This document shows positions 31,426 to 59,058 of a stretch of 64,000 nucleotides of DNA, piece by piece. The stretch spans positions 17,967-81,966 of the forward strand of contig JAAYPC010000046.1 of assembly GCA_012519985.1 (NCBI GenBank), read 5' to 3'. The notes beneath the pieces are model-generated. The model worked only from the letters and a program-made list of their open reading frames with translations. It ran no database searches and was not told the DNA's origin. The stretch is from Fibrobacter sp. (GTDB lineage: Bacteria > Fibrobacterota > Chitinivibrionia > Chitinivibrionales > Chitinispirillaceae). Within the stretch, counting starts at the first letter, position 1. Each line of letters starts with the position of its first letter. A program made the position numbers and the translations under genes.

Positions 31426-33513
31426 TTAAATCGATATCATTCCCAGAGATCGGATCTCTATTCCTGGTACAATTTCATTATACGATAACACAACCAGATC
31501 CCGGTAGTTACTCTCACATAGCCGTTTGAATGCCGAACGTATGGTCGGTGAACAGATCACCAGAGGAACTTCTCCACTGCTTTTAATTTTTTCCACCATC
31601 TCCCCTACTTTGTCCAGTATTCTGCCAACTTCACCCGGAGACAGATTGAATCGGAAACCGGACTCGGTCTCCTGTACCACTCCCTCCAGTTTCGCTTCCA
31701 GATTAGGATCCAGAGTGATAACAGGAATTATGGAATCTTCATTTTTATACATTTCACAGATCTGTGTGCTGAGTGCGTTTCGCACATACTCTGTCAATAT
31801 CTCCGTATTCTTGCTTCTTGATGCCACATTGGCCAGTGTCTCAAGAATCAAAGCAAGATCTCTGATGGAAACCCGTTCCCTGAGAAGATTCTGCAGAACT
31901 TTATGCACATCACCCACATTCAGCACACCAGGTATGAGCTCATCAACCAGAGTCGAATTGCTCTCCTTTATATTGTCCAGAAGTGTGCGGACATCCTGAC
32001 GGGATAATATCTCATGGGCATGACTCTTGACTATTTCGGTAAGATGTGTAGCCAGTACTGCCGGTAGTTCAACAACAGTGTAACCGGACATTTCGGCATC
32101 CTCTTTCTGACTTTCGGTAATCCATAAGGCTGGAAGTCCGAATGCTGGCTCCACTGTCTGAATTCCACGGATCTTCTTTACTGCTGTTCCAGGATCCATT
32201 GCCAGATAAGCACCACTCATCAGCTCACCCTTGCCAACCGCAATGGTTCTTATTTTCATCCGGTACTCATTTGGCTTCAATTGGATATTATCCCTTATAC
32301 GGATAGGAGGAATTATGATTCCCAGTTCAGTTGCCAATTGACGTCTTATCATGGTTATGCGGTCGAGAAGATCGCCGCCCTGCTTTGCATCCACCAGTGG
32401 AATCAGCCCGTAGCCTATCTCCAGTTCCATCGGATCCACATGAAGATAATCCTCGATTCTTTCCTCTTTCTGCTCCGGTATCGCTTCCTTTATCTCTTTC
32501 TCCTGCACCTCTTTTAATTGTCTTCTGGAACCCATATATGCTGCTACCGAGCATGATACACCCAGGATTATAAAAGGAATTTTGGGAAATCCGGGAATGA
32601 GAGCAAATAAAATCATCATGGCACCGGCTACCCCTAAAACCTTTGGCCTGGAGAAAAGCTGATCGGTTATCTCTTGTCCAAGATCGTTCTGGGATGCAGC
32701 CCTGCTGACCAAAATTCCTGATCCCACCGAAATCATTAAAGCAGGAATCTGAGAAACTAATCCATCACCGATGGTAAGAGTGGTATAGGTGGAAAGTGCA
32801 GCGCCAAAATCCATGCCCAACTGCGCCACACCAATAATAAATCCTCCAATAACATTTATCAGGGTGATAAGAATTCCGGCAATAGCATCACCTCTGACAA
32901 ATTTTGATGCTCCATCCATGGCTCCGTAAAAGTCTGCTTCACGGGAGATCTGAACTCTTCTTGCCCTTGCCTGCTCCTCATTTATTAGTCCGGCATTGAG
33001 GTCCGCATCTATAGCCATCTGTTTACCGGGCATGGCATCCAGGGTAAATCTTGCTGCTACTTCTGCTATTCTACCAGCACCTTTTGTAATAACCACAAAT
33101 TGAATGATAACTATGATAAGGAAAATTATGGCACCAACCACCATATTTCCACTTGTCACAAATGTTCCAAAGACTCTCACCACCTCACCGGCATCTGCCT
33201 GACTGAGAATAAGTCTGGTGGTAGCCACATTCAGTGACAATCGAAAAAGAGTTACAGTCAGAAGCAGTGAAGGGAAAACCGAAAATTCCAGAGCCTCTTT
33301 GGTATACATGGAAACCAGTAGAATAACCATGGCCAGACAAAGGCTTAATGAAAGCATTATATCCATGAAAAAGGTAGGGATAGGGATAACCATTACCACC
33401 AAAATCCCTATCACTCCCAGAACTATGATCAGATCGCGCTGATGAGTCAAGTTCTTGAAAAAAGGGGAGCTTATGATATTGCTTGCTACCTGGGGCATAT
33501 TTCCTGAATTCAT
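31426..33513 (-). CDS. flhA: Flagellar export protein FlhA
   Basis: 'GRIAEVAARFTLDAMPGKQMAIDADLNAGLINEEQARARR' FHIPEP signature. Confidence 0.97.
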   Translation of the reverse strand: MNSGNMPQVASNIISSPFFKNLTHQRDLIIVLGVIGILVVMVIPIPTFFMDIMLSLSLCLAMVILLVSMYTKEALEFSVFPSLLLTVTLFRLSLNVATTRLILSQADAGEVVRVFGTFVTSGNMVVGAIIFLIIVIIQFVVITKGAGRIAEVAARFTLDAMPGKQMAIDADLNAGLINEEQARARRVQISREADFYGAMDGASKFVRGDAIAGILITLINVIGGFIIGVAQLGMDFGAALSTYTTLTIGDGLVSQIPALMISVGSGILVSRAASQNDLGQEITDQLFSRPKVLGVAGAMMILFALIPGFPKIPFIILGVSCSVAAYMGSRRQLKEVQEKEIKEAIPEQKEERIEDYLHVDPMELEIGYGLIPLVDAKQGGDLLDRITMIRRQLATELGIIIPPIRIRDNIQLKPNEYRMKIRTIAVGKGELMSGAYLAMDPGTAVKKIRGIQTVEPAFGLPALWITESQKEDAEMSGYTVVELPAVLATHLTEIVKSHAHEILSRQDVRTLLDNIKESNSTLVDELIPGVLNVGDVHKVLQNLLRERVSIRDLALILETLANVASRSKNTEILTEYVRNALSTQICEMYKNEDSIIPVITLDPNLEAKLEGVVQETESGFRFNLSPGEVGRILDKVGEMVEKIKSSGEVPLVICSPTIRSAFKRLCESNYRDLVVLSYNEIVPGIEIRSLGMISI

Positions 33514-35786: not shown

Positions 35787-36110
35787 GTTTTTAAATTCAA
35801 AATTAAAGGTCTGTAAAGTAACCTGAAAGGTTTAGGGTTTAATTTGAAAGGTTTAGGGTTTAATTTGAAAGGTTTAGGGTTTAATTTGAAAGGTTTAGAG
35901 TTTAATTTGAAAGGTTTAGGGTTAACCCCCAAAGGTTTTAGGGCTTGTCCCCCAAAAGGTTTCCACTTTACCCCCTAAGGTTTTGCGTTAAAGTGGAAAG
36001 GTTTAGGGATTACCCCCTAAGGTTTTTGCGCCAGAATCTTTAAGGTCTGTAAAGTAATCTTAAAGGTCTGTAAAGAAAATTAAAAGGTCTGTAAACTAAC
36101 CCCAAAGCTT
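35787..36110 (+). repeat. Degenerate tandem array, 21-bp period, about 15-16 units (core AAGGTTTAGGGTTTAATTTGA)
   Basis: GGT anchors at 35808, 35829, 35850, 35871, 35892, 35913, 35934, 35958, 35979, 36000, 36021, 36044, 36065, 36086 (and AAAGCT-like 36107). Confidence 0.9.
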
Positions 36111-56039: not shown

Positions 56040-56775
56040 GAATACTTTAGAAGTACCTTTATACGCGCAATTTGGGAGACAAAACACTTTAGAAGTGTCT
56101 TTTCACACGTAATTTGGCAGTTTTTACATTTTAGAGATGTTTTTATACGCGCAATTCGGGAGACCAAACACTTTAAAAGTGCCTTTTCATGTGTAATTCT
56201 ACAGCCTAAACACTTTAAATTGCCGTTTTACGCGTAAACTCGGCAGCCTAAATATTTAACAAGAGCCTTTACACGCGTAATATTGACAGTTTAACCACTT
56301 TAAAATGCCATTATATGCGTAATCCTGGAGACTAAACACCTTAGAAATGCCTTTTCACGAGTAATTCGAGAGACCAAAACAATTTATAAGTACCTTTTCA
56401 CGCGTAATCCGGAAGCCTAAACACTTTAATAGTGGCTTTTCACGCGTAAACACGGTCCCCCAAACACTTTAGAAGTGGCTTTTCATGCGATATTCGAGAG
56501 ACCAGACACTTTAAAAGTGCGGTTTTTCGCAATATTCGGGAGATCAGACACTTTAGAGGTGCGATTTTTCGCATAAAAAATCTGTTCTAAACACTTTGGA
56601 TTGTCAATATTCGCATAAAAACGCTGTTCTAAGTACTTTTGATGGGTCAAGTTTCGCGTGAAAAGGCACCTTTAAACACTTGGGGGTCTCAGCATACGCG
56701 TATAAAGCCACTTCTAAATACTTTGGAATCAAACATACGCGTAAATCGGCTGTTCTAAACACATTAAAGTCCTGA
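56040..56775. repeat. Degenerate 42-bp-period tandem array: 13 direct then 5 inverted units
   Basis: Unit ~ aaaCACTTTAGAAGTGccttttcACGCGTaattcgggagacc; core axes at about 56049, 56091, 56133, 56175, 56217, 56259, 56302, 56343, 56386, 56428, 56471, 56513, 56555, then inverted cores 56588, 56630, 56673, 56715, 56756. Confidence 0.9.
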
Positions 56776-56798
56776 TATACGCCGCAGATAAAAATAAG

Positions 56799-56870
56799 CC
56801 TACCGTGGCGCAGTGGGTAGTGCGTTTCGGGTAATATCTCTCTGTAAGATCAGGTTGAAATCTGCAAATT
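56799..56870 (+). pseudogene. Decayed tRNA-like sequence
   Basis: A-box-like tggcgcagtggg and T-arm-like aggttgaaatct at roughly tRNA spacing, but no acceptor or anticodon stem pairing. Confidence 0.3.
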
Positions 56871-57991
56871 ATCTCAGTATGACAATAATCGAATCATTTG
56901 TCTCTATATCCCTTGTTTTCTCCTTTTTATTATTTTCCCCCTTAATCAATTCTATATTAACCACTGAACTGTCATTATAAATATCTTTGACCACCAGTTT
57001 CAGAGTATCAATTACAACAGTGGTTTCTTTCAGTGTATCTTGACAATCTCCTGTGGTGCAGACATAGGACATCTCTTCACCGGTATCATCATCTATTTTA
57101 ATCAGGTTATGACCAGTTGAGCTCCAGAAATATGTGAGCTCATCGCCTTCGGGATCATAAGCATGTGCCTTAACTTTGAGTGTATCCATTTTAGAAAAAC
57201 TAAAAACATAATGGCGATCTCCCTTAAGAGTAGTATCCCCCAAAACGATACTGTCCACAACCGGAGGAATGTTTTTCACATAGCTGCTTATGAAGACATC
57301 ACGATATTCACTTGAGCCCTGGTGATCAAATATCAGAAAATGTATTGTATCAATTATAACTCCTAAAGCCATATTATAGGTCATCTGCATGGGATTTACG
57401 TTCGATTGCATCGATTTTACCTTTATTACCGGAAAAGGTCAGATCAGGAACCTTCCCATCCAGATCACGGGCAAAAAACTGCACAGACAATTCGGTTTCA
57501 TCATCCCTGGTCTGATATCTTATATGCTTGTCACTTCCATTAAAGACATTGTCTTCTATCATAATACTATCGATAATCACAGGCAGATTGGTAACCTTTA
57601 CCCGTACCTTATTGCTTTCCCTTAATCCACCGCCAATGGTAATATAAACCGTATCGAAATAGCTGTTTGTCAGATTATCTTTTCTGGATGGATAATTTAT
57701 CCAGTAAAGATTGACTTCAAATCTCTTTGCATTTTTTTTAACCATTCCTTGTGGAATGATTAGTTTGCCCATTCCGGTATGCCATGCAAAGTCGCTGAAT
57801 ACTGTAGAATCATCGGTTTCCACAATGGCAAGAATGGGTTTACCAGAAAAAACAGCACTGTCCCGCTCAACTTTTTCCAGGCTGAGCCGGATTGAACTTT
57901 CAGAATCTGAACTTACTTCTGTAGGTGCAGGTGAACAAAGCAGATTGACGACAATAAACAAAGCAAATATTTCAAAAACCATTTTTATCAT
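56869..57991 (-). pseudogene. Lipoprotein with two Ig/PKD-like repeats, split by a frameshift near 57374-57411
   Basis: Two overlapping ORFs (57374-57991 and 56869-57411); end of first and start of second together complete a domain paralogous to the following one. Confidence 0.6.
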
Positions 57992-59058
57992 GCGGCATTC
58001 CTGTTTTTAAGACGATAGACATAAGCCATTACTTCTGCTACGGCTGTGAAAAATTCCACAGGTATCGGAAATCCCACTTCAACCTTATTATACATCGAAC
58101 GGGCCAGAGGTTTATCTTCTACAACAGGGATATTGTTTTCCTTGGCCAGTTTTTTTATCCTCTGGGCAATCAGATCCTTTCCTTTTGCTACAACCACCGG
58201 TGCATCATTTTCTTTTGGTTCGTACCGCAATGCAATGGCTAAGTGAGTGGGGTTTGTAACCACAACGGTAGCTTTTGGTACCTGCTCCATCATGCGACGC
58301 CTTGCCATCTCTCTTTGAAGGGATCTGATCCTGGATTTCACCTGCGGATCTCCTTCAAGCTGTTTTCTCTCCTCCTTTACCTCCTGGTGAGTCATTTTTA
58401 ATTGCTTTTCATGTTCAAAGCGCTGATAGGCATAATCAAGCACTGCGATTATTATCATTGCCAGGGCGATTCTTAAAATAACCTTATAAGAAGCTGCCAA
58501 TGCGTAGGTCCATATTGACAGAACTGATGCATCGGAGAGGGTTAGCATAGTCCCGAACTCTTTTTTCAGAGTAATATAAGCGACAGTGATGATAATGCTC
58601 AGCTTTATAATATTTTTTATGGTCTCAACAATAGAACGCATTGAGAAGAGTCTGGTGAAACCGGAAACCGGATTGATTTTCTCCAGCTTGGGCATCAGTG
58701 GTTTTAGAGTAAACAGGAATCCAACCTGAACCACATTGGCCACGATACCCATTATCAATATACCACCAGTAATTGGAGCAGCGACTTTTGCCATCAGCAC
58801 TAATGCTTTCCGTAAAAGAACCATTAATCTGGAATAATCCATTCCTGTATCCGAGATGGTTCTCATGAATTCTATCATGCTGCTGCTTAGTTCTTTTATA
58901 ATCCATGGTCCAAGAATCTTCATCAGGAAAAGAGCGGTCAGAAGTACTATCACCGAGTTTATCTCTGTACTTTTAGCAACCGTACCCCTTTCTCTTGCAT
59001 CCTGCCTTTTTTTTTCTGACGGGGCCTCAGTCTTCTCATCATTGGATTCTTCAGCCAT
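57988..59058 (-). CDS. flhB: Flagellar export protein FlhB
   Basis: 'EKTEAPSEKKRQDARERGTVAKSTEI', 'VVVTNPTHLAIALRY' NPTH cleavage site. Confidence 0.97.
   Translation of the reverse strand: MAEESNDEKTEAPSEKKRQDARERGTVAKSTEINSVIVLLTALFLMKILGPWIIKELSSSMIEFMRTISDTGMDYSRLMVLLRKALVLMAKVAAPITGGILIMGIVANVVQVGFLFTLKPLMPKLEKINPVSGFTRLFSMRSIVETIKNIIKLSIIITVAYITLKKEFGTMLTLSDASVLSIWTYALAASYKVILRIALAMIIIAVLDYAYQRFEHEKQLKMTHQEVKEERKQLEGDPQVKSRIRSLQREMARRRMMEQVPKATVVVTNPTHLAIALRYEPKENDAPVVVAKGKDLIAQRIKKLAKENNIPVVEDKPLARSMYNKVEVGFPIPVEFFTAVAEVMAYVYRLKNRNAA

Follow-up and report, generated by a model that had tools for sequence, protein, structure and literature searches.

Bipolar arrays of 42-bp repeats in a Chitinispirillaceae genome as candidate helix-phased platforms for a DNA-binding protein

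The stretch of DNA analysed here (64 kb, referred to as the window) contains an intergenic array of 42-bp repeats, which run in one direction and are then reversed. We propose, with a probability of roughly one half, that it is a bipolar, helix-phased array of putative protein-binding sites, centromere-like in its design, which would have been spread as repeats and homogenised. The proposal is based on the geometry of the array, on its sister copies in the host genome, and on arrays of a similar design found in related bacteria.

Layout and genomic position of the array

The original prediction described a ~42-bp periodic array with direct and then inverted units, and this description was confirmed. 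TRF reported 42 bp x 12.3 at 56044-56562, and two-model segmentation with axis scanning gave ~12 axes of the direct block (A) followed by 5 axes of the reversed block (B). The edges of the array were sharp over a flat background when local autocorrelation was used. The array is composed as follows:

56041-56782 of the 64-kb window: the array overall, intergenic, ~18 repeats of 42 bp with the direction reversed part-way
56041..56568, plus strand: A block, ~12-13 tandem units of 41-43 bp, consensus ACGCGTAATTCGGTCAACCAAACACTTTAGAAGTGCGTTTTC (TRF, segmentation)
56569..56610, no strand assigned: junction unit with the ACGCGT-like anchor TCGCAT in 42-bp phase; the second core steps 33 bp and flips
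56611..56782, minus strand: B block, the remaining reversed units, plus-strand consensus ACGCGTAAATTCGCTGTTCTAAACTCTTAGGGTGACCGATAT (inverted match, repeat family D2)

The first B core is located at ~56583, inside the junction unit. Alignment of the units and comparison of their consensus sequences bore out the claim that the last block is a reverse complement of the first. For all arrays taken together, the B consensus agreed with A at 31/42 positions in the inverted and 21/42 in the direct orientation (shuffle p<0.0002); the values for the window's own blocks were 29/42 and 19/42, respectively. When compared with the A blocks of other arrays, the window's last block scored 116 inverted and 50 direct, with a Markov null maximum of 42. 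A B-dimer model (sequence only) also recognised, on the opposite strand, A blocks belonging to other arrays, with E values from 1e-6 to 1e-4.

The junction had been described as a 33-bp step centred on a degenerate ACGCGT-like core. In the window array, this step is confined to the axis of the CACTTTA core and does not apply to the ACGCGT-like anchors, which continue at a 42-bp pitch through the junction (56527, 56569, 56611, 56653, 56695, and 56737). Since the anchors hold 42 bp and only the second core steps by 33 bp, the ACGCGT palindrome is the centre of the flip, as had been supposed.

The following genes define the position of the array:

56869..57991, minus strand: remnant of a lipoprotein gene linked to flhB, its 5' part (residues ~7-367 of 656) with a broken frame; the gene is intact in relatives
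57988..59058, minus strand: flhB, directly followed in relatives by the lipoprotein gene and then by flhA and flhF
31426..33513, minus strand: flhA, 24 kb off, with an island containing many GH43-like genes in between

In two relatives, the order is flhB, lipoprotein gene (~660 codons), flhA, flhF. The lipoprotein remnant ends near 56884, ~100 bp from the array, which is positioned at the flhB edge of the 24-kb GH43-like-rich island. Because the lipoprotein gene is broken off beside the array and flhA is 24 kb away, the array is, judged by gene order, at a synteny or rearrangement breakpoint. The only genes that recur beside arrays of the host genome are GH43-like genes, at two arrays. Near the other edge of the island, the window contains a second, unrelated tandem array (35824-36099) with a period of 21 (TGAAAGGTTTAGGGTTTAATT, 42-bp higher order). 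A tRNA-like stretch at 56802 was also considered and rejected, with no tRNA found in the window.

Arrays of the host genome

The host is a Chitinispirillaceae MAG (G000) of 4.74 Mb, whose nearest named FlhB is 67% identical. It is fragmented into 367 contigs, with an estimated contamination of 5%, and several arrays lie at contig ends. A search of this genome with the unit, suggested by the original prediction, revealed that the window array is one of many. The unit was also found on C279, on C353 joined to C171 via an exact 99-bp contig overlap, on C321, and at a second site of C171. Contig C179 contains B only, at its end; C254 and C224 carry short, degenerate copies, and the edge of C213 probably carries another. 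The five arrays with both blocks (the window array and four others) all have the A-then-B order, the same polarity, and the same 33-bp step. As this arrangement is found in four other arrays, the flip is, by this comparison, old and ancestral and not a recent local inversion. An inversion polymorphism is unlikely since the block order is identical in every two-block array.

The unit length is 42 in 39/63 units, with a mean of 42.1 bp. The middles of the arrays are homogeneous and their edges are decayed, which is a signature of unequal exchange. No common terminus was observed at the array ends, and flanks are common to some pairs only: the C171 and C353 arrays have a flank that is 91% identical over 130 bp, and the C171 and C279 arrays have a common 3' flank.

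The statement that the array matches no known family still stands. No similar DNA was found in plasmids, phages, IMG/VR, or GTDB species genomes. The proposed search of sister genomes was likewise negative, with no similar DNA in 40 relatives and no convincing match to the array models in 60 to 150 relatives. One match on contig C47 of G014 (E 9e-4) lay in ordinary sequence and was rejected. Rfam gave no match for the window array. Opposed arms of constant orientation and pitch, with a fixed centre, are dispersed in the host genome, and the arrays are absent from most relatives.

The period itself recurs in arrays of different sequence. Using TRF on sampled stretches of the host genome, we found a period of 21, 42, or 43 in 14/17 tandem arrays with unrelated units; the binomial p of ~1e-14 refers to a uniform null of periods 15-60, which is crude, and to samples covering only part of each genome. 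The stretches were not chosen for the A/B family; they include the window and a few picked for carrying another repeat. By eye, many of the units appear to contain a dyad or two, such as CCTAGCA-CCTT-TGCTAGG (L136) and GAAACT-CA-AGTTTC (L141). Most of the other array families sampled look unipolar in the stretch seen. The same enrichment was observed in the relative G005. Five further genomes from the same family, sampled over 466 kb, had no array of period 21, 42, or 43, and a single array, with a period of 60, was found in 357 kb from other phyla. Coding repeats were rejected: at most 37% of the window array is covered by one open stretch, and the existence of 43-bp arrays rules out a codon explanation because 43 is not a multiple of 3.

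Several further repeats were noted. At L126 (5140-5641) and L139 (5310-5576), A-like units grade into a 42-bp unit that is amplified, diverged, and marked by the palindromes AGATCT and TCGTACGA; contig C100 has an array made of a similar unit. The regions L124 (5682-6057) and L230 (2522-3076) lie between homologous convergent gene pairs (response regulator 91%, endonuclease-like protein 70% identical) and contain unrelated arrays, one of the 42-bp A/B type and one with a 21-bp unit; this is either array replacement at a fixed site or MAG contamination. Finally, a dispersed ~85-bp repeat (L012, 8124-8205) has >40 genome matches, which are frequently arranged as inverted pairs with a few hundred bp between them; the repeat resembles a MITE with long inverted ends.

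Arrays of 21-bp pitch in relatives and an adjacent orphan gene family

The relative G005 contains ~20 arrays with a pitch of exactly 21 bp and two opposed arms, in which a fixed core, TGAGRAACAY, is separated by freely varying spacers. In 40 distinct units from four of these arrays, TGAGAAAC(A) occupies 8-9 core columns with 1.8-2.0 bits, and the remaining 12 columns contain 0.03-0.9 bits. Of 15 arrays, 14 have a centre gap of 30 bp and one has 29 bp when the distance is taken between the final AACA of the forward arm and the initial TGTT of the reverse arm. At least 5 unrelated centre sequences are represented among these 15; the counts are not independent because the arrays of G005 are related to one another. 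The genome G014, which belongs to a different genus, has one TGAGRAACA-type array with different spacers and again a centre of 30 bp. Both genomes thus have the same core-plus-free-spacer design. Two arrays, L255 and L256, have upstream flanks that are 92% identical and differ in the core throughout the two arms, in every unit (TGAGGAACA/TGTTCCTCA vs TGAGAAACA/TGTTTCTCA, with 9+10 vs 10+11 units). A fixed core, pitch, and centre with free spacers is the pattern that a site array of an oligomeric DNA-binding protein would show.

These data bear on the strongest rival, namely that the arrays are neutral or selfish satellites produced by slippage and unequal crossing-over, with nothing bound to them, tolerated in intergenic space, and with a 21/42-bp unit set by replication or repair. 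We regard it as rather unlikely. The homogeneous middles and decayed edges agree with it, as do the species-specific and often unrelated units. It is also consistent with the preference of arrays for convergent gaps (12/28 vs 38/223, p=0.004, with genes called from ORFs only) and with the lack of arrays in divergent gaps of the host genome. However, it predicts neither an invariant core with free spacers nor a 30-bp centre with unrelated sequences, and it does not account for the core change common to both arms in L255 and L256 or for the recurrence of core and pitch in another genus. Bacterial minisatellites (VNTR loci) are tandem, intergenic, and homogenised, like the arrays described here, but they are not known to be bipolar with a fixed centre or to keep a multiple of 21 bp across unrelated units. 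The original prediction had named an iteron/parS-like array or a decayed minisatellite; we found that a binding-site array fits best, and the minisatellite part holds as a mode of evolution, as seen from the middles and edges of the arrays.

A candidate partner of the relatives' arrays, proposed from gene position and co-occurrence, is an orphan protein family of ~259 residues. At four loci (G014 C51, G007 C21, G005 C3, and G005 C15), its gene is located directly 5' of the array, with the 3' end pointing at the array, and it often forms a tandem pair. For G007, only one orientation of the array was observed. Of the 61 genomes searched, 6 have the family, among them all three that carry TGAGRAACA-type arrays; the chance of such a 3/3 co-occurrence is ~6e-4, which is a guide only since the genomes are related. 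The same search found no member in the window's genome. Members by 21-bp arrays, often as tandem paralogues, were noted at L283 (1993-2865), L282 (221-1112), L253 (576-1355), and L264 (2282-3055). Several more copies are present in G007 (C59, C48, C26, C6, C93, and C45) and G005 (C5 and C28), and G024 and G027 also have the family. Searches of Pfam, NCBIfam, PHROGs, PDB sequences, viral contigs, and plasmids with the protein gave nothing convincing. The AlphaFold model is all-helical and unreliable (mean pLDDT 41).

It could be argued that this protein moves or amplifies the arrays, which would then be non-autonomous mobile elements of the REPIN or foldback type, with inverted arms as multi-site ends for a transposase-like protein. 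The ~20 dispersed arrays of G005, few of them adjoining a gene, the flanks common to some arrays, and the breakpoint position of the window array speak in favour of this view. Foldback transposons (FB, Galileo) consist of two inverted blocks of internal tandem repeats, and in elements like Galileo the inverted termini are long and internally repetitive (PMC3573991); the window-type arrays resemble these elements and MITEs in having inverted terminal blocks made of direct repeats. FB and Galileo are, however, eukaryotic elements with defined termini and a transposase, whereas no uniform termini were found here, the patchy sharing of flanks looks like segmental duplication, and the orphan protein matched no transposase or nuclease family. 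A similar comparison can be made with the REP/BIME/REPIN repeats and their RAYT (TnpA-REP) proteins, which are dispersed intergenic palindromic repeats, sometimes near the partner protein gene (PMC3116915, PMC3733652), and are in this respect like the present arrays. REPs are palindromes of 20-40 bp, mostly tagged with GTAG or CGTC, in contrast to the long phased arms and the predicted-helical orphan partner described here. Neither tag was present at the dyad end in the unit consensus sequences, and no RAYT (Y1 transposase) was recognised in the flanking ORFs. We regard mobility of this type as improbable.

The weakest rival, a transcribed array whose inverted arms pair to give a long RNA hairpin interrupted by internal loops at regular intervals, is very improbable because the spacers, when checked for complementarity in register, were unpaired and a fixed 30-bp centre is unnecessary for pairing. 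Strong predicted folding (z -5.9 for the window array and -10.6 for the G014 array) and the core change matched in both arms are in its favour. However, any inverted repeat folds well, a pitch of 21.0 suits B-DNA (2 x 10.5) better than A-form RNA, and Rfam has no match. Neither compensatory change nor within-block covariation was found at the A/B dyads of the window family.

Proposed binding-site arrays and known centromere-like systems

In the binding-site explanation, each arm would be formed by the same site in one orientation, with a pitch of four helical turns (42-43 bp) in the host and of two turns (21 bp) in the relatives, and the arms would be joined head to head, with a constant distance at the centre. 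The protein could thus be arranged in many copies along the same face of the DNA, forming two opposed runs, which can be compared to a plasmid centromere. The arrays would spread as dispersed intergenic repeats, and unequal exchange would homogenise each arm separately. We infer that a protein binds the arrays and that, when bound, it may act as a nucleoprotein scaffold. The 42-bp family of the window is likened to the 21-bp family of the relatives by a common design and not by sequence, and by analogy both would work in a similar way. Some results speak against the model: the ParB_N counts do not separate array-bearing from array-free genomes, neither the orphan family nor another cognate gene for the window's array was found in G000, changes within the A/B dyads of the window family are mostly one-sided, and most other array families sampled in G000 look unipolar.

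The closest known design is the F plasmid centromere sopC (parS_F), which is built of twelve 43-bp repeats with inverted-repeat motifs and is bound by ParB (PMC6238139). Like sopC, the window array has tandem units of about this length (mean pitch 42.1 bp) with an inverted-repeat motif, the CACTTTARAAGTG dyad, which is 76% complementary in A and mostly decayed in B. Unlike the arrays described here, which are chromosomal, numerous, and of unrelated sequence, sopC is described as tandem and not bipolar and is present as one site per plasmid. Inspection of the ORFs flanking the arrays recognised no adjacent parA/parB operon, and PF02195 gave one weak match in G000, on contig C351. The arrays do not belong to the sopC type because an adjacent parAB operon is lacking and they are bipolar and numerous. 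In the parS sites of pSM19035, bound by ParB omega, contiguous short heptads are arranged as direct and inverted sites, and their function varies with how many repeats are contiguous (PMC9499535). The likeness lies in short sites in both orientations; the pSM19035 sites are, however, 7-bp, contiguous, and in mixed order, whereas the present arrays have two uniform arms at 21 or 42 bp. A CRISPR array was rejected for the 42-bp family, which has no spacers and a repeat that reverses mid-array, with no cas genes recognised nearby.

The similar arrays of relatives keep a spacing of exactly two helical turns, which suggests that the arrays may be undescribed landing platforms for a DNA-binding protein. 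Satellite-like DNA is generally regarded as scarce in bacteria. A broader and more tentative reading is that the arrays represent a new bacterial element, namely bipolar helix-phased arrays with a pitch of 21n bp and a fixed centre, forming many nucleoprotein platforms per chromosome, to which some relatives would add an orphan two-gene family. Its units would turn over fast with the geometry kept, much like eukaryotic centromeres built of satellite DNA. If opposed arms, a fixed centre, and a pitch of two or four helical turns are kept despite the change of sequence, this would point to a protein machine able to read spacing. In relatives, the orphan gene adjacent to the arrays makes this idea directly testable, and such arrays could serve as addressable multi-site DNA scaffolds.
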